DNA of 46,777 nt. Source: Ferrimonas kyonanensis DSM 18153. GTDB lineage: Bacteria; Pseudomonadota; Gammaproteobacteria; Enterobacterales; Shewanellaceae. The notes under the pieces were generated by a model. It saw nothing but the letters and a program-made list of their open reading frames with translations. It was not told the DNA's origin and searched no databases. Of this stretch, positions 1,814 to 45,539 are shown piece after piece (within the stretch, counting starts at the first letter, position 1; the number at the start of each line of letters is the position of its first letter). The position numbers and the translations under genes are program-made. The stretch is from positions 8,224-55,000 of the forward strand of contig NZ_KE384371.1 of assembly GCF_000425405.1 (NCBI RefSeq), given 5' to 3'.

Positions 1814-4800
1814 TTACGGCTTAATGTTAGCGTCCGACTTAGCCAATCTCTCCAGTCGGTTTATGGCCTGAGAGTGCGCTTGAATTGCGGCTTTTCGATA
1901 CCAGCTAATCGCCAGTTCTTGATCCTGATTAACGCCCCGGCCGGACTGGTACATCATACCCAGATTAGCTTGTGCTGAGGCGTTTCCTTGCTCCGCCGAC
2001 TTACGGTACCAATTTACTGCTTGTCTGTCGTCCTGAGCAACACCTCGGCCAGCCTTATACAGATAACCCAAGGCGTACTGGGCCAAGGGATCGCCCTGCT
2101 CGGCCGCCTTGAGGAACCAGATCGCCGCCTGGGGCTCATCCTTATCAACGCCCCTTCCAATCATATAGCACTGAGCCAGGTTAGCCTGGGCACCGCCATG
2201 GCCCAGTTCAGCCGCCTTGCGATACCAGCTTACTGCCAACTCGTCGTCCTGCTCGACTTCATCAGCGCTGCCATAGTGCATGCCGAGACTGAACTGGGCT
2301 TCCGGATCGCCGCGATCAGCGTTTTGTTGCAGTTTACGCACTCGTTCCACATCGGGATCCCGCTCGGAGGTAAAGTCAAACCCCAGATCTTCCAAAGGTG
2401 TTCTAACCGCTCGCTCAAAAAACTCGTAGTCGTCAAACGCCACCGCATCAGCCTGCTTCAGTTCCTCCAGGCTGTCGTAACACTTCATGCCACCACACTG
2501 CAGCTCTGATGTAAGCAGACCGCTCTCCCAGTCCCGTCGATTACCCAACACAAACAAATGATGCTTGGCCCGGGTTACGGCGACATTAAGCAGGTTAGGC
2601 TTGCTGTTGACCCAGCTGATCCCACCAGCTTTCTTCCGGATTAATGACCCTGCGGTGCACAACAGCACCGTTGAGGCTTCCTTACCCTGAAAGGTGTGGA
2701 CGGTACCGATGTTATCTCTCGGGAAGTTCTCCAGTTCAACGTCCGCCTTGCTGGCACCGAATGCGGACCGCATCCAGCCACGATTATTACTGTCCTTAGC
2801 ATGGCTTTTCCAAACCGCCTGCAGTGTCCGGCGCATCTCGGAGAAGGGCGTGATCATATACAGCCCCTCCTTAACCATCTGTGGGTGCTGCTCACACAGA
2901 TAGCGGGCTAAGTCCACTGCAGCCAATGCCTCTGTCTTGTTGTCGTAGCCACTGCCAGAGAGCTCAATGTCACTCTCTTCGATATTGATCCAGCCGCTTT
3001 GTGGCGCCTTCCAGTCATAGGGCAGGCTTGCCGGCACCATCTTGTCATCGTAGGCGATCTTGTTGGCGATGCTGAACATGGGTTCGGTACAGCGACGGTG
3101 GACCAGCAAGGGAATCCCTACCCGACGAGCACCGATTCGGGCAAAGTAATTACCCGCCTGATCTGCCAAGGTCTGGGCTGAGGAGGAGCTGATCAACAAA
3201 CGATCGCCCCAGCTCTCCTCGCCATCACTCTGAGACAGCTCCATAAAGTCCCGGGCAATATAGTGATCCAGCGGCGCCGGTATGGTCACCACCGGCTCCA
3301 ATTGTATGGGATCACCGACAAAGATCGCCTGACGGCAGCGCTGCAGTAGTCCTGCGACATGGTAGTTCACCGCCTGCCCTGCCTCGTCGAACATCGCCAA
3401 ACCAAACCCGCCTGGCTTTTGCATCAGCCGGAACTGGCTCTCCACAGAGGAGAGAGAGGTGCTGATCACGGGGAAGAACAGATACAACATGGACCACAAC
3501 TGAAGATGCTCCGGCCGCTGCTCCTGGGTCTCCAGTTGGCCGTTGATTAGAGCCGTCAGATCGTCCCATCGGTCCTTCACTGAGCTGGCAGCCTGTTCGG
3601 CCATCGCTTGGTTCAACGCCATCGCAGTCAAGAAGAGCTCCGTGCGACAACGATTCACCGCCTCGCTGCCAAAGGGCGAACTCATCTGCAGTCGAGCTTC
3701 GGTCTCGTGAGGCTCCTCTTGATCGCGCCCTTGATAGGTTTGAGGGCCGAGCAAGTGCGTATCCGGATCAAGCTGCCACTTTTTGCTCTCTCCGCCATTG
3801 AGATCCTTGATCATGCAATTGTACTGAGCCACAGCCTTGCTGAATGCTGCCTTCGCCAACTCCAGCTTATGCTTCAAGCGTTGCTTACCCAGTTTCTGGG
3901 CAAACCACTGACGCTTGATCCGATCGAGGGCCCTTACCGCCTCATCCCACTTTTCCTTTTCCTGCTTGTCCCAAGCAGCTGCGAACTCATCGACTGTCAG
4001 CATCTGACTCTGGATCTGCTCCAGTGCCGTACACCAGGCTTTAAAGAATCCCTGGTGCTGGCCGTATGCTTTGCTATTGCGAATTTCCTCGGTCAGTTCG
4101 AGCAGCTCGTCGTTAGCCTGCCAACGTCGAACAAAGCGTGCTATCACCTCACCTGGCTTCTTGTTATTGTCTTGTTTTAGAGAGTTAAACAGGTATTGAA
4201 TCTGGAAGTGATCCTCCACACTGTTCATATGGTTACGTAATCGCTTGAGCAGTTTACCGAATGCCTTGCGGTTGTCGCTATTGCCCAACACGGCGCAAAG
4301 CAGGCCCCAGTCACCGCTTTTGGCAACGGAACGAAAATGTCTAAGATCGTGAAACTCCGCAGACAGCTTGCCTAGAGAGGGAAGCTCCTTAGAGATGTTC
4401 TCTACCGCCTTGTTGTTGCTAGAGGCCACCACCATGGAGCTCTCAAGAATCACTTCTACCGCCTCATCGGACCGCAGCCAGTCCTCCTTGTCACACAGAG
4501 CCAGCAAGCGGTTGGTACGAAGTACGAGGCGCTGGGCGATCACATCTTTGAGCAGCGTGGTCTTACCGGTCCCCGGCGGTCCATTGACCGCCACCACGGG
4601 ATTGCTGGCCTGTTGCCCAGCAATATTGACCGCCATCGACTGCAGCAGACTCAAGCCATACTTGGGGTTTTCTGGCCAGCGGCCGGCAGGTACCGACCGG
4701 GTCAGGTCAAAAAACTGCTGGCCAGAGCTGCACGCCTCCCCGATCTCCTCTTGCTGTTCACTGCCCAGCAGATAGCGATAAAGAGGCGCAGAGAGACCGT

Positions 4801-5653
4801 GCTGTGCCCCCAGTTTCGACAGTCGCAAAATGGCGCTTTCCAGATCTTTAACAAAGAAAGGACCTAGCTGGGCACTATCATTGCCTCTGGGGTAATAGCA
4901 AAAGCGCCAACGGAAGGTGAGAGAGCCCTGGGTTACTTGGGGCACATCTTCTTCCTGCAGCTGGCTTTCGATGGGCTGGCTGCGATCCAGCATGAACTCT
5001 CGAGACGCCTCGTTGGGCCAGAACTCGTCGGCCAGTTGCTGGTTAATCTTGTCCAGTTGCTGCTTGAGCCCGTCGCCCTCCAATGGGCCATCCAACTCGT
5101 GAGCCAACCTATTGTTGACGGTTTCGATGCGCGCTTTGATCCACTCTGACAGCGCCATATTGTCAGGAATGGCATCAGGACAGTTACGATAAAGGGTACG
5201 CATAGTGGCCAGGTTCAGGACTAGATCGCAAGACTCCTCTGAGCGCAGCCACTTCAGTGTTTGGGCCTGCTCGTCCCACTTGGGCAGCATCGCCTGAGCC
5301 ACCAGGAATGTACGAGGAGTTTCATAGTTGGGATGTGGCAGCTTATCCGGGTGCAGATAACCTGCCCGGTGGCACTGAAGCATGATCACCAATCTGGCGT
5401 CTTTATGAAACGCCCTTTGGCCGCTGTTTAGCCCCTTTTGCTTGGACTCGGCGCAAAACTCTGCAAAGCGGGATACCTGCTGGCTAAACACCTCATTCTT
5501 GGGATCCATGGGGCACTCAGGGAGATCAAACAACTCCGCATCGCACCAATAGTTCAGGATCTGAGCACAGCGGCGATCCTCGGCACTGATCCCAGTTTCG
5601 CGACGCTGCCGGCTAAACAGGGCTTGCAGCGAACCCAGCAGGTTACCCTTCAT
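1814..5653 (-). CDS. DNA2/NAM7-type superfamily 1 helicase with C-terminal Sel1 repeats
   Basis: A 1279-aa protein from the ATG at 5653, which has GGAAAG nine bases upstream; an in-frame TTG at 5731 would add 26 residues. The first ~350 residues are unassigned. Then come the helicase motifs: Walker A GPPGTGKTT (about residue 358), Walker B FDEAGQ, motif III GDPIQLEP, motif V GTVHTFQGKE and motif VI NVAVTRAKHHLFVLGNR. This is the UPF1/DNA2-like SF1 pattern. A long helical insertion lies between Walker A and Walker B. The last ~155 residues are four Sel1-like repeats (AQFSLGMHYG, AQANLAQCYM, AQYALGYLYK, AQANLGMMYQ followed by AISWYRKAA), which normally bind proteins. Role: ATP-driven DNA or RNA unwinding, perhaps with a partner bound by the Sel1 tail. 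SF1 helicases of this type occur in several phage-defence systems, but that role is inferred. Confidence 0.85.
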   Translation of the reverse strand: MKGNLLGSLQALFSRQRRETGISAEDRRCAQILNYWCDAELFDLPECPMDPKNEVFSQQVSRFAEFCAESKQKGLNSGQRAFHKDARLVIMLQCHRAGYLHPDKLPHPNYETPRTFLVAQAMLPKWDEQAQTLKWLRSEESCDLVLNLATMRTLYRNCPDAIPDNMALSEWIKARIETVNNRLAHELDGPLEGDGLKQQLDKINQQLADEFWPNEASREFMLDRSQPIESQLQEEDVPQVTQGSLTFRWRFCYYPRGNDSAQLGPFFVKDLESAILRLSKLGAQHGLSAPLYRYLLGSEQQEEIGEACSSGQQFFDLTRSVPAGRWPENPKYGLSLLQSMAVNIAGQQASNPVVAVNGPPGTGKTTLLKDVIAQRLVLRTNRLLALCDKEDWLRSDEAVEVILESSMVVASSNNKAVENISKELPSLGKLSAEFHDLRHFRSVAKSGDWGLLCAVLGNSDNRKAFGKLLKRLRNHMNSVEDHFQIQYLFNSLKQDNNKKPGEVIARFVRRWQANDELLELTEEIRNSKAYGQHQGFFKAWCTALEQIQSQMLTVDEFAAAWDKQEKEKWDEAVRALDRIKRQWFAQKLGKQRLKHKLELAKAAFSKAVAQYNCMIKDLNGGESKKWQLDPDTHLLGPQTYQGRDQEEPHETEARLQMSSPFGSEAVNRCRTELFLTAMALNQAMAEQAASSVKDRWDDLTALINGQLETQEQRPEHLQLWSMLYLFFPVISTSLSSVESQFRLMQKPGGFGLAMFDEAGQAVNYHVAGLLQRCRQAIFVGDPIQLEPVVTIPAPLDHYIARDFMELSQSDGEESWGDRLLISSSSAQTLADQAGNYFARIGARRVGIPLLVHRRCTEPMFSIANKIAYDDKMVPASLPYDWKAPQSGWINIEESDIELSGSGYDNKTEALAAVDLARYLCEQHPQMVKEGLYMITPFSEMRRTLQAVWKSHAKDSNNRGWMRSAFGASKADVELENFPRDNIGTVHTFQGKEASTVLLCTAGSLIRKKAGGISWVNSKPNLLNVAVTRAKHHLFVLGNRRDWESGLLTSELQCGGMKCYDSLEELKQADAVAFDDYEFFERAVRTPLEDLGFDFTSERDPDVERVRKLQQNADRGDPEAQFSLGMHYGSADEVEQDDELAVSWYRKAAELGHGGAQANLAQCYMIGRGVDKDEPQAAIWFLKAAEQGDPLAQYALGYLYKAGRGVAQDDRQAVNWYRKSAEQGNASAQANLGMMYQSGRGVNQDQELAISWYRKAAIQAHSQAINRLERLAKSDANIKP

Positions 5654-6007
5654 AAGCGAAGTCTTTCCGTTTTTTTCTAAATATTTTAATAAGTTGCTAG
5701 TCTCGCATTTCACTTTGCCGCTAGCAACCAAACGGTGCGCAACATTCCAACTAACATCTCAGCCAGAATGTAACGGGCTGCGATAAGGATTCAGTGAGCA
5801 CTCAACTCACCACCATCGACGCGTCAAATCCAAGTGAACAGTATGTGGGACATACCATCTCTGACCACCCAATATAATCGCCTCTCACCACACAATCGCA
5901 AACAGTCCACGACTGCATCGCTTAGGTGGACGGCTCCTATCGGAACTCCTATTAGGAGCAAAAAGTCCAGAGTGAATGGGTCTTGTTTTGCGGCCGACGT
6001 GTGGATC
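5654..6007. other. Gap between the Fic and helicase genes
   Basis: This covers the upstream region of the minus-strand helicase and the 3' side of the minus-strand Fic gene. I see no gene, strong terminator or clear promoter. Confidence 0.35.
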
Positions 6008-7573
6008 TCAAGAGCCTTCCGGCGGAGCCTCCTGCTGTTCCAGCATCAACTCACATACCAAACTAGCAAAGGGCATCGCATCTCCGTAGACCGATGCCTG
6101 ATCTAACGCCTTCAGGTACTCGGCCCGACGTGACATTGTGATGACTGTCCAGGAAAAACCACCTAGCACCAACATCAGATTCATGATGAAACGCGCAGTG
6201 CGACCGTTTCCGTCCGGATAGGGGTGAATGTACCCTAGGAGCAGATGGCCAAGCACAGCTTTGACTGAATAATCAGGTTCAGACGCCATCAACTCCTTCA
6301 GGGAGTCCATGCAATCCATCAGGCAGTCACTTTGCGGTGGCATGTGCCTAGAACCTCGGATAATAATTGGCCCTTTTCGATGACCCGCAAGAGTCTCGGG
6401 CGTCACAATCCCCGCTGCCACGCAAGGCTTAAACAGGCTCGCGTACACCTCAGTAAGCGCCACGTCTATAAGGTAATCGAGGTCTAGTGATTCTTGTCCC
6501 GCCGAATGGGCCTCTGTCAGCAACGCCTTTACGCCTTGAAACGCCTCATAGTAACCCCGGGCCGCTAACGCGTCCTTCTGTCGCCGATCCTCCTGAAGTG
6601 TCTCAGGCGACCAGTCTCCATTAGCCACCTTCTCGATTAGTTCCGAGGTCACCACGTAGCCCTCTATAGAGAGCGAATGATAAGCATCAGCAACGTATAT
6701 CGATTCCATCCCTTCAAGAATCTGCTTCAAATCTCGAGCGAAAAAATCGCTTTTGGGCACCGCTTCAAAGACAGAGGCCACCTGCTTTCGAAGGTCTCGC
6801 CACAACATCCTGACCCGCAATGACGCTGGCGACTCACCTCGTGCAGCCCCTATGCTGGAAACCGCCACTTCGAAAGGATTTTCAGTACGAATGCCAGAAA
6901 AGCCAGCTACCTTCATTAGCGACGTGAGCTTGCGAACCTGAGCCTTGAGACCCAGCTCCTGATATGCCCCGATTAAGCGATTCGCGGAAGCTACGTTGGC
7001 ACTGCGAAGCAGCTCCTCACCAATACGTTCAACCTGCGCCCTCTCCAGACCCACTTGGACAGCAAAGGGATTCTGCCGGTACATGCTGGGTGAAATAGAC
7101 GCTAGAGCCAGCTCGAGCGGCAGTACCCGCACCCCGCCCTCCACCACCAGACCTGACGGAGCCTCTGACTTGGGCAACACTAGCAAGCTCATCTCGTTAG
7201 GCAGTTCTACCTGACGCTTTCCCCCATCGGAGTTAAATACAATGAGTTGTTGGGGGAGCCGGTTGCTTTGAGTGTGAATGTCCAGGGATGCCTCTGGGTT
7301 AAGCCAGTAAGCATCGCCGTAGGCTTCCTCAAGATACAGTCCCAAGAAGTGCCAAATGGATTCAAACCACAGCGCTGACTCACCTGCTTTAGAAACGGCC
7401 ACATCAGCGTCCAGAAGATACCAGCCACGAATGATGGACTTCATGTACCCATTCTTCACCAGTAGCGCTCGGTGTCTCTCGGAGACCCAATTTCCACGAA
7501 CAATGTTGCCATCACTGACCTCTTTCGCCGCGGTAAGCGCTTCGGCCAGTCTTTGGTGCCCTGTCTTCGCCAT
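6008..7573 (-). CDS. Fic-domain protein with an AbiEi-like N-terminal region
   Basis: 521 aa. The Fic active-site motif HPYPDGNGRTAR lies at about residues 450-461, with catalytic His and phosphate-binding residues intact. Fic enzymes usually transfer AMP from ATP to hydroxyl groups on target proteins. A class II self-inhibition motif (SLSIEG, S-xxx-E-G) lies about 120 residues earlier, so the enzyme should be autoinhibited. The N-terminal ~200 residues contain a winged-helix-like segment (ALLVKNGYMKSIIRGWYLL) and further features reminiscent of AbiEi-type antitoxins; that part is inference. I chose ATG at 7573, preceded by GGGGGAG, over a 46-residue longer frame because the extra residues are translated tandem repeat (KVTNAGS). 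It is monocistronic, with no neighbouring antitoxin gene, consistent with built-in inhibition. Confidence 0.85.
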   Translation of the reverse strand: MAKTGHQRLAEALTAAKEVSDGNIVRGNWVSERHRALLVKNGYMKSIIRGWYLLDADVAVSKAGESALWFESIWHFLGLYLEEAYGDAYWLNPEASLDIHTQSNRLPQQLIVFNSDGGKRQVELPNEMSLLVLPKSEAPSGLVVEGGVRVLPLELALASISPSMYRQNPFAVQVGLERAQVERIGEELLRSANVASANRLIGAYQELGLKAQVRKLTSLMKVAGFSGIRTENPFEVAVSSIGAARGESPASLRVRMLWRDLRKQVASVFEAVPKSDFFARDLKQILEGMESIYVADAYHSLSIEGYVVTSELIEKVANGDWSPETLQEDRRQKDALAARGYYEAFQGVKALLTEAHSAGQESLDLDYLIDVALTEVYASLFKPCVAAGIVTPETLAGHRKGPIIIRGSRHMPPQSDCLMDCMDSLKELMASEPDYSVKAVLGHLLLGYIHPYPDGNGRTARFIMNLMLVLGGFSWTVITMSRRAEYLKALDQASVYGDAMPFASLVCELMLEQQEAPPEGS

Positions 7574-7629
7574 GTCTCCCCCAATGGTCAGATTTTGATG
7601 ACCTCGCGGCCATGACCCAGTATTTCGTG

Positions 7630-7797
7630 AATTAGTAACCTTAATACTACATCCATTTGTCACTTTTACGCTACCGGCATTTGTCACTTTAAAGCTACCG
7701 GCATTTGTCACTTTTAATCAACCGGCTTTAGTCGCTTTTACGGCACCAACATCTATCACTTTTACGCCGTCAGAATCTTTCACCTGATTGCCAAGTT
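7630..7797. repeat. 24-bp tandem repeat array upstream of the Fic gene
   Basis: At least five head-to-tail units of exactly 24 bp: 7654-7677, 7678-7701, 7702-7725, 7726-7749 and 7750-7773. Weaker units lie on both sides (7630-7653 and 7774-7797). The unit core reads TTGTCACTTTTACG on the plus strand and ends ACCGG in the central copies. Divergence grows outward from the centre. On the minus strand the three central copies read as repeated KVTNAGS. The array is 57-200 bp upstream of the Fic start, so it could be an iteron-like or operator array. Confidence 0.75.
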
Positions 7798-22487: not shown

Positions 22488-22772
22488 TTAGTGTGCTGCA
22501 ATCGCCCGATAGACTGTTGGGTCATCCTGGATGGTAGCCAGCACCTTAGCTGCTAGGCCCGTAGGGTTACGGCGCTTTCGCTCCCAGCTCTTGATTGTGT
22601 CTACACTAGTGCCCAGCGCATCAGCAAATTCTTGTTGTGAGGCACCCAGATATGTGCGAATAGCTTTTACGTCTGCAACATCATAACGGGTTACACGAGC
22701 CGCCTCTTGTCGGCCCTGCTTGATTTCAACTGCTTCCTCGAGGGAGGCTTTCAACTCGTTAAAGATACTCAT
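22488..22772 (-). CDS. NadS/HigA-type Xre-family antitoxin
   Basis: 94 aa. The helix-turn-helix occupies about residues 35-80: VKAIRTYLGASQQEFADALG, then TSVDTIKSWERKRRNPTG. An N-terminal helix (FNELKASLEEAVEIKQG) precedes it, the usual NadS-like layout. Such antitoxins neutralise a RelE/HigB-type toxin and repress their own promoter. It is the second gene, starting 1 bp after the toxin stop, the toxin-first order typical of higBA-like pairs. A palindrome at 23135-23153 is the likely operator. Confidence 0.85.
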   Translation of the reverse strand: MSIFNELKASLEEAVEIKQGRQEAARVTRYDVADVKAIRTYLGASQQEFADALGTSVDTIKSWERKRRNPTGLAAKVLATIQDDPTVYRAIAAH

Positions 22773-22773
22773 C

Positions 22774-23106
22774 TTAGTTCTCGCCTTTCAGTAGCTTGGT
22801 AACTTTCTTAAGGTCATTCTTTTCTTTCTTGGTGAGGCTGTCTTTCTCACCTTTTGCGTACGCCAACACCAGGTAGATTACTTCTGATGTTGCCAGGAAA
22901 TAGATAACTCGCGCTCCGCCACTTTTACCCTCATCACCCATTGCCATGCGTACCTTACGGAGGCCACCGGTGCCTTCGATGATTTTACCTTTTTCTGGCT
23001 GAGCAATGAGATCAACCTGTAACTCTTTTAACTCATCATCAGTTGCGATCTCTTTGATCTTTTTCTCAAAGATTTTCGTCTCGATGAACTCAATAGCATG
23101 ATTCAC
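22774..23106 (-). CDS. RelE/HigB-family toxin
   Basis: 110 aa starting at GTG 23106. RelE-fold features are FIETKIFEKKIKEIATDDEL, the central GTGGLRKVRMAMGDEGKSGG strand-loop with conserved Arg, and RVIYFLATSEVIYLVLAYAKGEK near the end. Members usually cut mRNA on the ribosome. The Lys-rich C-terminus (LTKKEKNDLKKVTKLLKG) fits the family of toxins paired with NadS-type antitoxins. No other start is better placed; AGGG lies about 12 bases upstream. The antitoxin follows immediately, so the operon looks intact. Confidence 0.85.
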   Translation of the reverse strand: MNHAIEFIETKIFEKKIKEIATDDELKELQVDLIAQPEKGKIIEGTGGLRKVRMAMGDEGKSGGARVIYFLATSEVIYLVLAYAKGEKDSLTKKEKNDLKKVTKLLKGEN

Positions 23107-28068: not shown

Positions 28069-28200
28069 TTGACATCCTCCCCGTCGTGACGGGGATTCCT
28101 CGTTAAAGGCGCTAACCCGATTGCTCGGAAAGCGGGTTCCTGTTTCACAGCCCGATGCCTCAGCCGATACTCGGCTTTGGTCTTACTCAGGCTCCGCAGG
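28069..28200 (-). ncRNA. Predicted omega RNA (reRNA) of TnpB
   Basis: In TnpB elements the guide RNA comes from the 3' end of tnpB through the right end, with the guide taken from flanking DNA. Here that is the minus-strand region from about 28200 to 28069, with a candidate guide starting CTAACATGCGTC just outside. Position is inferred from family knowledge; the only structure checked by eye is the 28079-28094 hairpin. Confidence 0.4.
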
Positions 28201-29287
28201 CCAACACGGCAAGCCCTGCCGCTTTAATGTTTTGGGCAGCGTTGATGTCTCTGTCGTGCTCGATTGAGCACTCAGGGCAACGCCACGACCGAACAGAAAG
28301 ACTGAGATGGTCAAGGGTATGGCCACAGCACGAACAACGCTTACTGGATGGGTACCAACGGTCAATCTTCACCACTGTACGCCCCGCCCATAGGGCTTTG
28401 TATTGGAGCTGGCGACCAAGTTCGCCCCAGTTGGCGTCGGCAATATGCTTCGCCAACTTAGGGTTCTTAACCATGTTTTTCACCGTGAGATTTTCAAGGC
28501 ACACAACTTGGTTCTCGTTGATGAGTGTGCGGGACGCCTTGTGGGTGGCGTCCATCCGGCAGTCGGCAATCTTGGCGTGGAGCTTGGCGACTTTCAGCTT
28601 GGCCTTGGCACGATTTGCACTACCCTTTTTCTTTTTGGACAGGCGGCGCTGCAGCAGCGCCAAACGCTGCTCATAGCGCTTGAGGTGCTGAGGGTTGCTG
28701 GATTTGAATCCATCAGAGGTGATAAACAGGTCTTTCAATCCCAAATCGATACCCACTGTTTTAGCGACAACAGGCATCGGTTTGGGTTCGAACTCACACA
28801 AGCAACTAACAAAGTAGCGACCAGAGCAGTCTTTGGAGATGGTGATTGTACTGGGGTCGCCCGGAAGCTCACGGCTCCAGCGAATCCTCAGCGGCTCTTT
28901 GCTCTTGGCCATGAACAGCTGGCCATCACGGTATTTGAACGCAGATCGGGTGAACTCCGCCGATTGGCGGTGGGTTTTCTTCTTGAACGTTGGGTGGCTT
29001 GCACGGCCCTCAAAGAAGTTCTTAAAGGCGGTTTGCTGGTGCCGAAGGCTCTGCTGCAGCGGCACGCAGGATACGTCGCTAAGCCAGTCCAACTCTGGTT
29101 CTTTCTTCATGGAAGAGAGCATGGCATTGGCTTTGGTGTACCCCACCTTCAACCCTTGGTTGCTGAAGGCGTCAGTACGCCACGCCAATATTGAGTTGTA
29201 GACAAAGCGAACACAGCCGAAAGTCCGAGCCAAGAGAGACTCTTGTTGCGGTGTTGGGATGAATCGGTATCGGTAAGCACGCTTCAT
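28187..29287 (-). CDS. tnpB: TnpB, RNA-guided nuclease of IS605-type elements
   Basis: 366 aa, full length for TnpB. The N-terminal region (RYRFIPTPQQESLLARTFGC) is the usual OrfB start. The RuvC-like catalytic residues are all present: Asp181 in VGIDLGLKD, Glu265 in VCLENLTVK, and Asp347 in DRDINAAQNI. A four-Cys zinc finger (CSCCGHTL, then CPEC) lies at about 318-340. TnpB uses the right-end RNA to cut DNA next to a short motif that matches the insertion target, favouring retention of the element. GAGG just before ATG 29287 supports the start. The gene looks active; no frameshifts. Confidence 0.92.
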   Translation of the reverse strand: MKRAYRYRFIPTPQQESLLARTFGCVRFVYNSILAWRTDAFSNQGLKVGYTKANAMLSSMKKEPELDWLSDVSCVPLQQSLRHQQTAFKNFFEGRASHPTFKKKTHRQSAEFTRSAFKYRDGQLFMAKSKEPLRIRWSRELPGDPSTITISKDCSGRYFVSCLCEFEPKPMPVVAKTVGIDLGLKDLFITSDGFKSSNPQHLKRYEQRLALLQRRLSKKKKGSANRAKAKLKVAKLHAKIADCRMDATHKASRTLINENQVVCLENLTVKNMVKNPKLAKHIADANWGELGRQLQYKALWAGRTVVKIDRWYPSSKRCSCCGHTLDHLSLSVRSWRCPECSIEHDRDINAAQNIKAAGLAVLACGA

Positions 29288-39613: not shown

Positions 39614-39702
39614 GGCAGGAGCCGTTGGGCTCTTGCCAGTCGAGTATGATTCTTTATTACTTGGTATGAATCTCTATTAATCAGTATGAGACTTTATTTC
39701 TC
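39614..39702. repeat. Repeat element copy 2: hairpin plus three 20-bp direct repeats
   Basis: The hairpin GGCAGGAGC / GCTCTTGCC with loop CGTTGG (39614-39637) is followed by tandem 20-bp units at 39643-39662, 39663-39682 and 39683-39702 of pattern RGTATGANNCTNTATTNNTY. It matches 23531-23599 in layout and in its following bases (AC[CT]ACAGTC or ACCCACAGTC). The last unit supplies the ATG of the frame that continues into the SLOG-like remnant. Confidence 0.75.
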
Positions 39703-40015
39703 ACCCACAGTCATTGAGGCCGATGGCACCGTCATATTTGAGTGTAAAAAGTCCGCTGGCAGCATTCAAACCTCCAGGCTGTGCATCAAGCACCACAAGC
39801 CCGTACTGAAAATTCACCCGTTCGACGACCAGCTGCATAACCTAACCCTGCTTAGTCAGTTTGTCCTCGACAACAACATCCGGGTGTTGAACCTCGCCGG
39901 ACATCGAGAGTCTGTTGCCCCCGGGATAGCAAAAGAGGTCGCCACCCAAATACATTTGCTGTGCTCACAGCAACAACAGTCTCCCTTTCTGTGCCAACAC
40001 GCCCTACGGCGCTAA
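39686..40015 (+). pseudogene. 5'-truncated SLOG-type (putative molybdenum carrier-like) gene
   Basis: The frame reads through the repeat into VIEADGTVIFECKKSAGSIQ, then KPVLKIHPFDDQ, then NNIRVLNLAGHRESVAPGIA. This matches the C-terminal half of YpsA/SLOG-like proteins annotated as putative molybdenum carrier (pattern SDGTVIF... T... KPVL... IRVLNVAGPRES..PGI). The first ~70-80 residues of the family, with the opening Rossmann strand, are missing and replaced by the repeat element, so this is probably a broken gene. An intact start cannot be found upstream. Family call moderate. Confidence 0.55.
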
Positions 40016-41059: not shown

Positions 41060-41413
41060 ATGAGCTACCGAGCAGACTATCTGGGACACTACCTGGACCG
41101 GCTTCGAGGCAAGCCTGCAGCCCTGTGCAGGAAGGTTGTCTACGAGGAGCTTGACGCCGCGCCCATTCGTCAGGCCCCACTCCCCTCCCCCAAGCGCAGC
41201 AATGGAAAGCCAGGCCGTAAGGCGACCCTGCCCGATGCGGTCATTCTGGCCTTGCTGAGGGAGCGTTTCGGCAGTGATCTGTCCAGCAGGGAGCTCTCAG
41301 CCAAATTCAATGTGCCGGCCACGACTGTTCGCGCCATCTGCAGCGGCAGCAAGCCCCGGTACCGGAAGCTGAAGGATCGGTTTCTCCAAGGCCAGGCAAC
41401 CGACAAGGAATGA
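41060..41413 (+). CDS. Small HTH protein, probable DNA-binding
   Basis: 117 aa. GGAGG lies seven bases before the ATG. The N-terminal half is basic and Pro-rich (RQAPLPSPKRSNGKPGRKAT). The C-terminal half looks like a homeodomain-like or resolvase-type helix-turn-helix: LPDAVILALLRERFGSDLSS, then RELSAKFNVPATTVRAICSG. No catalytic domain is attached. It may regulate the element or be a relic of a recombinase's DNA-binding domain. It sits 94 bp after the transglycosylase on the same strand and just before the MBL/E2-E1-JAB operon. Confidence 0.6.
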   Translation: MSYRADYLGHYLDRLRGKPAALCRKVVYEELDAAPIRQAPLPSPKRSNGKPGRKATLPDAVILALLRERFGSDLSSRELSAKFNVPATTVRAICSGSKPRYRKLKDRFLQGQATDKE

Positions 41414-41733: not shown

Positions 41734-42864
41734 ATGGCATTAGAAAACTGTGTGTTGCACTTCCCCGTAGGCAATGGCGATATGACCCTGCTCCAGATTG
41801 GTCGGCAAGGCTTTGGTAAAACAGTGCTGGTGGATGTAAAGATCACTGACTCGTCTCAGGGAGAGCAAGCAAAGTGTGACGTTCTTGCTGAGCTGCATAG
41901 CGTCCTACCCAAAAGGGACGGAGTACCGTACATCGATTGTTTTGTAGCGACCCACCCTGATGATGATCATGTCAAAGGCTTAAAGAAGCACTTCTACCTC
42001 GGTCCCCCTGAGGAATATCAGAAGCGGGAGGAAGGGATACCACTTATCAAGGTCGATGAGATCTGGTTCTCAGAGGTGTGCACTAAGCGAATTTCTGAGG
42101 ATCGACGATTAGGAGAGGACGCGGTAGCCCTAAGGACAGAAGTTAAGAGGCGCAGGAAATGCTTTGAGTCAAAAGTAGGAGCCGCATTGAATGGTAATCG
42201 CCTTCTTGTGCTTGGCAGTGTCGAAGATGGAGAAGGTAAGGTGGAAAGGTGGGACTTGCCCGGGTTGGTTGCTGAGTGCGGGTCGACAATCACCATTGGA
42301 GAAGCAGAAGCCCTCGTTCTAGCTCCTCTGGGAGACGAAATCTTCGATGACGAAAATCAGTCCTCCAAGAATGATTCGTCTGTGGTGATCCGCTGGACGA
42401 TAAAGGGCTCAAGGATTTTGTTGGGGGGCGATGCAACGGTCCATATCTGGAAGAGCATTGGCGACAAATATACTGCAGCAGATTTGAGCTATGACTTGCT
42501 CCTAGCTCCGCACCATTGTTCTTGGAGGACAATCAGCTATGACTCTGCCAGCAAAACTGAGAACCCCAAAGTTAACGAAGGGGCAATAGCTGCTTTAAGC
42601 CATGCAGAACCTGGAGCGCTAATTGTCTCCAGCAGTAAGGAAATATCCAGTGTGACCCAGGACCCGCCAAGCCACCTTGCGAAAGCAGAGTATGAGAAAG
42701 TAGTTGGTGCAAAGAAGTTCCTATGCCTTGCTGATACAGGTAATAGTCAAAATCCCCCCAAAGTTAGACAAGTCAATCTTGGGTACATGGGGGTGTCACT
42801 TGTTGCTGTAAGTGCTCCATCAATAGCAATACCTAAAAAGAGTCAGCCAATCCGACATGGTTGA
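41734..42864 (+). CDS. ComEC-like metallo-beta-lactamase-fold hydrolase
   Basis: 376 aa. Metal site: THPDDDHV at about residues 73-80 (HxDxDH, as in ComEC-type MBL proteins), GGDA with Asp233, and LLLAPHHCS at about 257-263. No membrane segments are present, unlike true ComEC, so it is a soluble hydrolase; phosphodiester or nucleotide substrates are usual for this branch, but this one is unknown. GAGG lies eight bases before the ATG. Its end overlaps the next gene by 8 bp (42857-42864), so the two are translationally coupled. MBL-fold proteins are known partners of prokaryotic E1/E2/JAB cassettes in comparative genomics. It could be the effector or a processing enzyme. Confidence 0.85.
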   Translation: MALENCVLHFPVGNGDMTLLQIGRQGFGKTVLVDVKITDSSQGEQAKCDVLAELHSVLPKRDGVPYIDCFVATHPDDDHVKGLKKHFYLGPPEEYQKREEGIPLIKVDEIWFSEVCTKRISEDRRLGEDAVALRTEVKRRRKCFESKVGAALNGNRLLVLGSVEDGEGKVERWDLPGLVAECGSTITIGEAEALVLAPLGDEIFDDENQSSKNDSSVVIRWTIKGSRILLGGDATVHIWKSIGDKYTAADLSYDLLLAPHHCSWRTISYDSASKTENPKVNEGAIAALSHAEPGALIVSSSKEISSVTQDPPSHLAKAEYEKVVGAKKFLCLADTGNSQNPPKVRQVNLGYMGVSLVAVSAPSIAIPKKSQPIRHG

Positions 42865-45037
42865 GTCACACATCGAGCACCTCATTCACCTCATTGGGTC
42901 GCATGGACGAGTCGTTGAAGTCTTGTCATGTAAATCACACCAGGACAACTTTGTGGTTGAGGTAGTATGGAAGGTTATGCTACCTAGTCGGTGTGAGGAA
43001 GACGGATGTACGCCAGTAGGAATCCGAGAAATGGAGCCAGTTACTTTCCAGATTCCCAGAAACTACCAGGCCATAGGATTTCTCCCATTTTTGAGGAGCG
43101 ACTTTCCAAGGGATAAACTACCCCATATCAATCCAACGGGGTATGGGACTCTAGTCTCTCCGTGTATCTATGAGGGTAGCCTCTCTGATCTCATTCATCA
43201 GAGAGGAGTTTTAGGAGTGCTGGATGCACTTCAAGAGTGGCTTGATAGCGCCGCACAGATGAGGTTAATGGATAGAGAGCAAGGCTGGGAGCCTGTGCTA
43301 TTCCCGAATGCAAAAGGAACTTTCTCTGAATCACCTGAGGTACTCAACTCGGCCATTCAAGAACATCATTGTAAAGCTGGTTTTAGTGCGGGCTTATGCT
43401 CATATATAAGGTACTGTTTTGAACCAACGCCTGGATTTTTCCGAGTTGGTAGGGAAAAGTATTCTGACAGTAAGGAGGTTGATGTTCACCTTCTAATAAT
43501 GCCGGAGAGCGAATCATCTTCTCATTATCAGAATGGCGCTATTAGTGACCGTGAGAGCCTGGAAGAGTTCGTCTCCCGCCTCGATGGCAATGTCCCCGAT
43601 AACGAGTTTGGATTGATTGTCGACAGACGCGACGCACTGAGTAAATTGGTTTGTGCGTACAGCAAAGGAGATCGATCAGGCGTAGGTATTTCTGTTTTGG
43701 TCATTGCTGTGAAGCGCCCATTCAATCTACTCGGTCAAAGTACTCCTTTTGAAATCATCCCATTCATCCTCAGGCACTCCAGAGAGCCGTCCAAAAGGTT
43801 AGAGGTGATCCCGCTAGATTTTCGGTCTCCAGTTAGCTATGAAATGCTGAAGAAAACTTCCTTCGGTGGCTTAGAACATCCGAATTTCAAGGTGGCGGTG
43901 CTTGGTTGTGGCAGCGTAGGGTCTAAAATAGCCATGACGCTAGGAAAGACTGGCGCGTATAGTTTTTCCCTATGTGACAAGGAGGGGTTAGCTCCTCACA
44001 ATCTAGCGAGGCACGCCCTTTGTGATGTTTTCACTTCGGGTGGTTTTTGGAAAGCGGAGGCACTTTCGCTGACCCTCAGTCATACACTGGGAGTAGATGT
44101 ACAAAGCTACTGCCGAAATCTAACTAGTGATCCGCTGCCATTTGCTTCGGCAGATACAAAGCTCGATGCTGTCATCGAGACAACTGGTTCTGCATCAGTA
44201 TCTTCGACCATTAACACACTGGATAAACTGCCTGGGCGGTTAATCCAAACAGGGCTCTATGGTAAAGGTCAGGTCGGTTATTTGGCCTTTGAACCAATGG
44301 GTGACGAGCGAAATCCGAACATTGGTGACCTCGAGGCCCTGTTTTTTCAGTTTAGTTACTCTATACCCAGAGTTCGTAGCCTCGTATTTAATCAGGCCAA
44401 TTTCAGCAAGCAAGTTGTTGGACCCGGTTGTTCCTCCCTAACTACTGTCGCACCAGATTACCTCGTATCACTCCAGTCCAGCTCAATTGCAGCAAAGATT
44501 GATTCAGGTCTTACTGCAGAAGTGCCAGAAGCTAAGGTCATGCTTTCACACTGCGATAGGGAATCTTGGAGCCTTCAGTGGCATGAACTTACAGTTCCAA
44601 GAACAAGGTTGTTTACTGTTGCTGAGTCGGAGCGAACTTGGAGTGTTCGGGTTTTGGGTGGTTTGGCCGATGAACTGAGCGAGCAAAGAAGGACTTGCCT
44701 TCCGTTTGAGACTGGAGGCGTATTAGTCGGTCATATCGATCTGCTAAATCTGACTATCTATGTATGTTCTGCTCAATCATTAGCTCCATCGGAGCAACCT
44801 ACTCCAACGAGTTTCGTATTGGATCAGGCAGCGTTATCAGGCGTGAATGAGGAACTTCTACAAGGTTCGGAAGGTTACTTGCAGGTTCTAGGAACCTGGC
44901 ATAGTCACCCTCATTCATCTCGGCCTTCGTCAACAGACTTAACAACGATGCGCGAGCTATCTGATTCTTGGGGCTTGGAAGTTGTACTGATGCTGATAGT
45001 TGGTGAGGAAGGAATGGAGTTTATAAATGAAAGATAA
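42857..45037 (+). CDS. E2-E1-JAB triple-domain ubiquitin-like conjugation protein
   Basis: 726 aa. N-terminal E2-like domain (about 1-160): LPHINPTGYG (His90) followed by SPCIYEGSLSD (Cys103, candidate thioester Cys), then LQEWLDSAAQMRL, as in Cap2-type E2 regions. Middle ThiF/E1 domain (about 343-560): KVAVLGCGSVGSKIAMTLGK (GxGxxG), Asp374, HNLARHAL (Asn382, Arg385), and candidate E1 Cys525 in VVGPGCSSLTT. C-terminal JAB/MPN domain (about 610-726) with the complete JAMM set: Glu618 in PFETGGVLVG, GTWHSHPHSS (His682, His684), Ser691 and Asp694. One protein could thus activate, transfer and remove a ubiquitin-like modifier. In CBASS type II and Bil systems these domains are spread over Cap2/Cap3 or BilB/C/D. 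No ubiquitin-like gene is found nearby; the substrate may be a neighbour's C-terminus. It overlaps both neighbours. Confidence 0.85.
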   Translation: MVESHIEHLIHLIGSHGRVVEVLSCKSHQDNFVVEVVWKVMLPSRCEEDGCTPVGIREMEPVTFQIPRNYQAIGFLPFLRSDFPRDKLPHINPTGYGTLVSPCIYEGSLSDLIHQRGVLGVLDALQEWLDSAAQMRLMDREQGWEPVLFPNAKGTFSESPEVLNSAIQEHHCKAGFSAGLCSYIRYCFEPTPGFFRVGREKYSDSKEVDVHLLIMPESESSSHYQNGAISDRESLEEFVSRLDGNVPDNEFGLIVDRRDALSKLVCAYSKGDRSGVGISVLVIAVKRPFNLLGQSTPFEIIPFILRHSREPSKRLEVIPLDFRSPVSYEMLKKTSFGGLEHPNFKVAVLGCGSVGSKIAMTLGKTGAYSFSLCDKEGLAPHNLARHALCDVFTSGGFWKAEALSLTLSHTLGVDVQSYCRNLTSDPLPFASADTKLDAVIETTGSASVSSTINTLDKLPGRLIQTGLYGKGQVGYLAFEPMGDERNPNIGDLEALFFQFSYSIPRVRSLVFNQANFSKQVVGPGCSSLTTVAPDYLVSLQSSSIAAKIDSGLTAEVPEAKVMLSHCDRESWSLQWHELTVPRTRLFTVAESERTWSVRVLGGLADELSEQRRTCLPFETGGVLVGHIDLLNLTIYVCSAQSLAPSEQPTPTSFVLDQAALSGVNEELLQGSEGYLQVLGTWHSHPHSSRPSSTDLTTMRELSDSWGLEVVLMLIVGEEGMEFINER

Positions 45038-45539
45038 GACCGAGAGGCCGCCATTAGACAATGAGAATCGGCTAAGTGTAGTCGGCTTGTTTGCAGCAAT
45101 CATCTTACATACTGTGTATGCATACTTTATATGGAAGGTATCTGTAAGCATTGGTGGTTTTGAACCTGAAAGAACAGTAGATGAGTTAGGTTTGTACATG
45201 GTGACGGGGGCTTTAGGCGGGATGTTATATTGCCTCAGAGCGATTTATCACCAATGGTGTGTGGTATCCTCTTGGTCGAATCGATGGCTTGTTTGGCATG
45301 CTTTGCGTCCAATCTGCTCTGCACTTATGGGAGGTGTAGCTTTCCTAATGATTAAGTCTGGTATGCAGCTATTCAACTTTGAACAGACAGGCGAGCAAGT
45401 TCAATGGGCCAACCTATTACTAGCACTTGTTGCCGGATACAATGTCTCTCAAATGCAGAAATGGATGGAAGGCCAGTTCCGCAAGTCAGTCGGAGTAGAG
45501 CCAACTAATCAAGCAAATAATAGTAAGCATAACATTTAA
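45027..45539 (+). CDS. Four-helix membrane protein of the MBL/E2-E1-JAB operon
   Basis: 170 aa. Hydrophobic segments at about residues 16-39, 51-69, 89-110 and 127-141 suggest four transmembrane helices; the ends are hydrophilic (start MKDKTERPPLDNENR, end with Asn-rich tail). No known domain. Its ATG lies inside the last codons of the E2-E1-JAB gene (11-bp overlap), so it is co-translated and probably functionally linked. Membrane proteins are frequent terminal effectors in defence operons, acting by disrupting the membrane; that role is inference. The C-terminus ends ...NNSKHNI and has no Gly-Gly, so it is not an obvious conjugation substrate. Confidence 0.7.
   Translation: MKDKTERPPLDNENRLSVVGLFAAIILHTVYAYFIWKVSVSIGGFEPERTVDELGLYMVTGALGGMLYCLRAIYHQWCVVSSWSNRWLVWHALRPICSALMGGVAFLMIKSGMQLFNFEQTGEQVQWANLLLALVAGYNVSQMQKWMEGQFRKSVGVEPTNQANNSKHNI

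Follow-up and report, generated by a model that had tools for sequence, protein, structure and literature searches.

In operons of the cyclic oligonucleotide-based antiphage signaling system (CBASS) that carry Cap2 and Cap3, the C-terminal glycine or alanine of the cGAS/DncV-like nucleotidyltransferase (CD-NTase) is the residue that becomes conjugated, as stated in the accessible text of PMC10097602, and a cyclase with the last tryptic peptide KPGGFA has been found joined to PspA in a reaction that depended on the cysteine of the E1 as well as on that of the E2 (accessible text of PMC11153139). A related arrangement is operon type 6a in Table 1 of Iyer et al. 2006 (PMC1779556, in the part accessible to us), in which a triple E2-E1-JAB protein almost always adjoins a metallo-beta-lactamase-fold protein (MBL), usually as a two-gene operon. 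NCBIfam describes the families NF058523 (6A-MBL_cap2_3) and NF058524 (6A-MBL_enzyme) as components of an 'anti-phage 6A-MBL system'. Here we analyzed such an operon from Ferrimonas kyonanensis DSM 18153, situated in a stretch of 46,777 nucleotides of contig NZ_KE384371.1 (positions 8,224 to 55,000), which is called the window and to which all coordinates refer. Its three genes, all on the + strand, encode an MBL of 376 aa (41734..42864), an E2-E1-JAB protein of 726 aa (42857..45037) and a small membrane protein of 170 aa (45027..45539); the open reading frame (ORF) coordinates bear out the overlaps of 8 bp between genes 1 and 2 and of 11 bp between genes 2 and 3 reported in the original prediction, which had been made from the DNA sequence alone. 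We consider it likely that this is a 6A-MBL anti-phage operon in which the glycine-ended MBL serves as a tag that is conjugated by the Cap2-type machinery and removed by the fused JAB part.

Gene 1 scored 301 bits against NF058524 (cut-off 220) and gene 2 scored 414.3 bits against NF058523 (cut-off 320), and the two core proteins appear in the same order as in 6A-MBL. Since both NCBIfam equivalog cut-offs are passed and type 6a is listed in PMC1779556, the family is not new, and by sequence the Ferrimonas operon is a genuine member of the already named 6A-MBL family with a type 6a core. Hence, the suggestion in the original prediction that the architecture might be undescribed did not hold. 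Type 6a usually comprises two genes, whereas the window and 35 of 55 cluster representatives have an additional membrane-protein gene nearby, which we did not find described in the accessible part of that paper. A literature search that covered few subscription papers and no preprint server returned no paper on 6A-MBL by name and, judged by titles and the opening of abstracts, none on conjugation of this MBL; since NCBIfam has given the family a name, a source on 6A-MBL seems to exist, and this negative result is not to be equated with an unpublished system.

The triple protein consists of an E2-like domain (residues 7-156, 42875..43324; Pfam Prok-E2_A, 2.1e-27), an E1 adenylation region (residues 343-535, with the end chosen by us, 43883..44461; Pfam ThiF at residues 343-453, 3e-8) with the GxGxxG motif and Lys399, supported by invariant residues in an alignment of 34 sequences including the window protein, and a JAB/JAMM isopeptidase domain (residues 603-717, 44663..45007; Pfam Prok-JAB, 2.1e-13). 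The ten catalytic residues named in the original prediction, i.e., His90 and Cys103 in the E2 part, Asp374, Arg385 and Cys525 in the E1 part and Glu618, His682, His684, Ser691 and Asp694 in the JAB part, were all found at the positions given there and are invariant in this alignment. The AlphaFold2 model (mean predicted local distance difference test value, pLDDT, 83.4) matched best the complex of Cap2 with the CD-NTase CdnD (PDB 7to3, Foldseek E 1.4e-26, 624 alignment columns), with further Cap2 structures, complexes of Atg7 with E2 and Bub (9eav) next in the list. The N-terminus is therefore E2-like, and the structural finding that the original prediction had named as refuting it did not occur. 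Sequence relatives of the E1 part include MccB and MoeB. In one subgroup (L036, L037) the E2-E1-JAB protein itself also ends with glycine (-GGARG) and the third gene encodes a patatin.

The likeness to type II CBASS concerns an E2-wing-E1 arrangement nearest to the Cap2 fold, in which Cys103 and Cys525 are kept, a JAB part, a glycine-ended partner and an effector slot occupied by a patatin or a membrane protein; the window operon differs in having an MBL in the place of the CD-NTase and E2, E1 and JAB on one chain. The absence of a CD-NTase noted earlier was confirmed insofar as gene 1 is an MBL and a Pfam scan covering 27 proteins of the window gave no nucleotidyltransferase family. Bil and Bub operons share the E1, E2 and JAB conjugation parts, and they carry a beta-grasp ubiquitin-like protein. 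In contrast, Pfam found no beta-grasp ubiquitin-like protein among the same 27 proteins, other ORFs and those below 80 aa lying outside the scan.

The MBL has the residues His74, Asp76, Asp78, His79, Asp233, His260 and His261; of these, His74, Asp78, His79, His260 and His261, known in this family to bind metal, are invariant across 39 aligned MBLs. Its model (mean pLDDT 85.8) resembles most closely the MBL domain of ComEC (9ic4, E 1e-11), which also ranks first among PDB entries by sequence profile (1e-4), and the protein is a putative ComEC-like nuclease. In ComEC itself the MBL is joined to a channel in the membrane, and the protein is assumed to break down DNA. The window MBL, unlike ComEC, stands alone and has a conserved, conjugation-like tail. 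From residue 361 on the two last blocks are poorly ordered (mean pLDDT 46 and 48), and this C-terminal tail (codons 361-376, 42814..42861, + strand) closes with His375-Gly376. The original prediction had stated that no recognizable ubiquitin-like protein is present; this is literally correct for the scanned proteins, however, it overlooked that the MBL has a conserved C-terminal glycine motif and occupies the place that the conjugated CD-NTase has in CBASS.

The conservation of this tail was surveyed in 103 loci, all of which were selected via the E2-E1-JAB protein and never via the MBL. They comprised the window itself, 14 loci from plasmids (out of 30 listed matches among 291 records), two from genomes of the host's family, 80 from genome contigs, which were the best among 275 relatives there, three from viral contigs and three from the search at order level. 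An MBL match was present in 100 of them, the exceptions being L101, which lies at a contig edge, and the partial relatives L121 and L122. In L094 (4807-8214) the MBL and the E2-E1-JAB protein are read as a single ORF of 1135 aa without His-Gly, while another frame of the same stretch has a His-Gly-containing tail followed by a stop; this record probably contains a frameshift and was left out of the tail counts. The remaining 99 MBLs formed 41 clusters at 70% identity, and His-Gly was found within the last nine residues in 36 of them, either terminal or with one to six residues after it, whereas the other five end with -RAG or -YG and then zero to eight residues; these values come from a sample biased towards close relatives of the query alignment. 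At 90% identity the share was 59 of 65 clusters, and an exact C-terminal glycine was present in 48 of the 99 MBLs. The MBL bodies, which amount to 38,195 residues, contain His-Gly 23 times, so that by chance about 0.5% of the proteins would have it in the tail. All 39 aligned higher-scoring MBLs, the window included, have it behind an unconserved linker rich in alanine and serine.

Control MBLs, which belong to defence families and were found without an E2-E1-JAB partner, were taken from family searches for Avs1a, LmuA and RTasMBL in 349 genomes each, which gave 12 distinct places. His-Gly within the last nine residues was found in none of the eight distinct ORFs that match the MBL profile and, when the places were read without the profile, in none of 11 complete ORFs (the twelfth, G451, lies at a contig end); nor was it present in any of the secondary MBL-like ORFs of the surveyed loci, of which 18 are distinct. 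An artefact of the gene overlap was also considered, because the window sequence CATGGTTGA (42856..42864, + strand) comprises the codons for His, Gly and stop (CAT GGT TGA) with the ATG of gene 2 inside. This explanation was rejected, since the histidine codon is CAC, which leaves no start codon there, in 17 of the 36 clusters (CAT in 19) and all four glycine codons occur. Hence, the His-Gly tail is not forced by the overlap and, judged from these codons, is conserved at the protein level.

A comparable tail is found on the CD-NTases. In all eight that adjoin a Cap2-like gene the C-terminus is Gly or Ala (RYG, RYA, RHA, RYG, RHA, RYA plus five residues, GFA and NNA), a small sample of which three were picked through their Cap2 and five came from 398 genomes, and none of three CD-NTases without a Cap2-like gene in the stretch has such an end (GRR, CDN, RRR). 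The MBL tails, with -HG, -RAG, -YG and -YA, thus look like the CD-NTase ends beside Cap2. The -YA form comes from a hybrid operon on the Aeromonas salmonicida plasmid pBY3 (L162, 2389-6318), in which an MBL annotated as CobQ ends with -AYA and is followed by a Cap2-like E1-E2 protein of 588 aa (PADLOC E1-E2, 391 bits) and a JAB protein, each on its own chain, and by a homologue of the window's membrane protein (gene 3). Of 248 records with plasmid relatives of this E1-E2 protein three were inspected; all three adjoin a DncV-like cyclase, and in two a patatin is a neighbour as well. The simplest reading of this gene order is that in pBY3 an MBL has replaced the cyclase ahead of a CBASS-type conjugation pair, which applies to one plasmid only.

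The conserved tail, the CD-NTase parallel and the pBY3 replacement are the reasons why the MBL is read here as a conjugated modifier. Probably it is first adenylated and then handed over to the cysteine of the E2 part for conjugation. The E1 part would adenylate the C-terminal glycine of the MBL (Gly376), which would then move via Cys525 to Cys103 as a thioester, and the E2 part would use this glycine to couple the MBL to a target, in the way in which Cap2 handles CD-NTases. Where short C-terminal tails are present, the JAB part fused to it would trim them, and it would also detach the MBL from its targets. Conjugation would activate or place the MBL as a putative ComEC-type nuclease, and the membrane protein, or the patatin phospholipase or second MBL in relatives, is a likely effector that harms the infected cell, or else the attachment site. 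The target could be the membrane protein or a nearby lipid, in which case the MBL would work on incoming DNA at the membrane, in the manner of ComEC. In its widest form the model would make an active ComEC-like MBL the modifier, a second class of enzyme without beta-grasp fold, after the CD-NTases, that a Cap2-type enzyme conjugates through a C-terminal (H/Y/A)-(G/A) tail, perhaps anchoring a DNase at the membrane next to the membrane protein of the operon, where a covalent bond would yield a ComEC-like combination of channel and nuclease against phage DNA; this is possible, but we would not give it even chances.

Several observations speak against the conjugated-modifier reading or limit it. 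At 50% identity the share of His-Gly falls to seven of ten clusters and it is therefore not universal, and all eight further plasmid MBLs (L159-L161, L163-L167) end with -RAG plus zero to four residues. Because of these later plasmid MBLs, His-Gly is, on the alignments, the main form of the glycine-ended MBL tail and not the sole one. A looser rule that accepts any Gly or Ala is less specific than His-Gly, because one of the 11 control MBLs ends with -FA, and it is loosened further by two of the 18 secondary ORFs, which end in Gly. Moreover, the effector slot is heterogeneous, with no profile hit downstream in 16 of 55 representatives and no recognized third gene in 15, four of which had less than 400 bases available. 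The weakest step is the communication between the MBL and the membrane effector; if the latter is gated, the signal that an MBL would give it is not evident.

The absence of a recognized third gene might also indicate that parts of the system lie elsewhere, which would suit a different explanation, namely that the E2-E1-JAB protein conjugates another, unlinked ubiquitin-like protein or peptide and that the MBL acts on its own as an effector nuclease, its tail having another purpose, e.g., docking or metal binding. The placement of the MBL on E2 is indeed a prediction only. However, His-Gly was seen only in MBLs that adjoin E2-E1-JAB, the MBL tails parallel those of the CD-NTases beside Cap2, and the Pfam scan of 27 window proteins mentioned above found no beta-grasp family, so that we regard this explanation as unlikely. 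The occurrence of MccB and MoeB among the relatives of the E1 part points to another chemistry, in which the MBL tail would be adenylated for thiocarboxylate formation or for AMP or amide capping in a ThiF/MccB-like manner instead of conjugation; in this case there would be no need for an E2 part whose His90 and Cys103 are invariant, nor for a complete JAMM site, and the nearest fold is Cap2 with its substrate, which makes such a role quite improbable. Finally, E1 proteins and JAB proteins do occur in metabolic operons for sulfur carriers or cofactor synthesis, as found in the accessible text of Iyer et al. 2006 (PMC1779556). A metabolic instead of a defence function would hardly be expected here, given the plasmid-borne relatives, several of them beside restriction, WYL, integrase or conjugation genes, the rarity of the family and the lack of any rhodanese or ThiS/MoaD family among the 27 scanned proteins, and it is the explanation to which we attach the least credence.

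The third gene was described in the original prediction as a four-helix membrane protein. It does look membrane-bound; a simple hydropathy scan gave only one segment at the stricter and two at the looser threshold, and four helices are plausible from an alignment of relatives. The 170-aa protein matched no Pfam or PADLOC family and nothing above the cut-offs in NCBIfam, and among 97 related genomes the window's own copy was the only one found. Homologues of this type, called TD, are situated near other 6A-MBL genes (L040, L162, L166, L167), an effector role is proposed, and a profile built without the window and L040 finds the window protein at 7e-23. TD was also encountered on plasmids of Klebsiella, Escherichia, Serratia, Enterobacter and Vibrio, where its gene is divergent, follows one for a WYL regulator and lies next to the MBL and E2-E1-JAB genes; in six of these plasmid loci, from enterobacteria and Vibrio (L159-L161, L164, L166, L167), the MBL ends with -APRAG plus three or four residues and the divergent WYL regulator and membrane gene lie alongside. 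The 35 representatives mentioned above have, at most 2.6 kb downstream, a membrane protein that falls into one of the four profile families (TA to TD), in two of them on the opposite strand (L029, L104) and in one behind another gene (L107); the profiles were built from the same loci, and the number is hence a tally and not a test. The membrane protein of L094 lies further off on the opposite strand, and an ORF of L101 that shows three hydrophobic segments is unclassified. Two representatives have a patatin motif in the third gene, and a further one, L036, shares the protein of L037 read from a later start; in another, which represents 26 loci, the third gene encodes a second MBL. Pfam agrees with patatin and MBL in the non-membrane cases tried, one MBL case being below the cut-off. 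Comparison of the profiles gave a weak likeness of TA and TB (probability 66.5), while TC and TD resemble none. The loci with a second MBL are near-alike across very different genera (L023, L052, L054, L056, L057, L059-L061, L063, L065-L070 and others), 26 fall into one cluster at 70% identity and several have identical scores and tails, which suggests a recent and wide horizontal spread of this sequence cluster.

The distribution of 6A-MBL is patchy and rare, as judged from profile scores: the gene 2 cut-off is passed in three of 152 genomes of the host's family and, at the level of the order, in four of 295 genomes including the host's own. Relatives in genome contigs were retrieved with an alignment as query, the window protein as lone query being unproductive, and belong by record titles to Pseudomonadota and cyanobacteria, with further ones in metagenome bins, possibly misplaced, of Nitrospirae, Spirochaetia, Aminicenantes, Actinomycetota and Bacillota. 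The phage records searched gave no match, three viral contigs matched, one of them with a full-length relative (L120) and two with partial ones (L121, L122), and no plasmid matched at the DNA level. At the protein level relatives are found on plasmids; 242 plasmid records match the window MBL at E <=1e-5, of which 126 are from Klebsiella, and the E2-E1-JAB gene adjoins the MBL in all six of these records that were inspected.

The surroundings of the operon in Ferrimonas contain the F-type conjugation genes TraN, TraU and TrbC as well as transposase genes, and this window content, with the defence candidates named below, fits a mobile element bearing defence genes. The earlier view of a ubiquitin-like conjugation operon that is akin to Cap2/Cap3 of CBASS, lies in mobile surroundings and probably serves defence is supported. 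None of the ORFs in the 103 loci matched the ORF of 117 aa upstream of the operon (41060-41413) at E 0.1, and the latter was therefore not counted as a part of the system. Another candidate defence gene encodes a Mokosh-like helicase with Sel1 repeats (1814-5731; PADLOC MkoC of Mokosh, 220 bits), and a Fic-domain protein (6008-7711; PADLOC SoFic, 68 bits), a toxin-antitoxin-like pair of a helix-turn-helix and a RelE-like gene (22488-23106) and an IS605 OrfB/TnpB-like protein with a Cas12f-like domain (28187-29287) were also observed. A short ORF at 39686-40015 belongs to the cpYpsA SLOG family but covers about half of the domain (61-141 of 145) and is perhaps a remnant.

Collectively, the conserved tail of the MBL predicts a second class of conjugated enzymes and names Gly376 as the exact residue concerned, which makes the mechanism of 6A-MBL directly testable. 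It also suggests that Cap2-type enzymes may take interchangeable enzyme cargoes that share one short C-terminal motif. Because of the number of plasmid records with this MBL, many of them from Klebsiella, and the adjoining E2-E1-JAB gene in each of those inspected, the question extends beyond Ferrimonas to common mobile elements.

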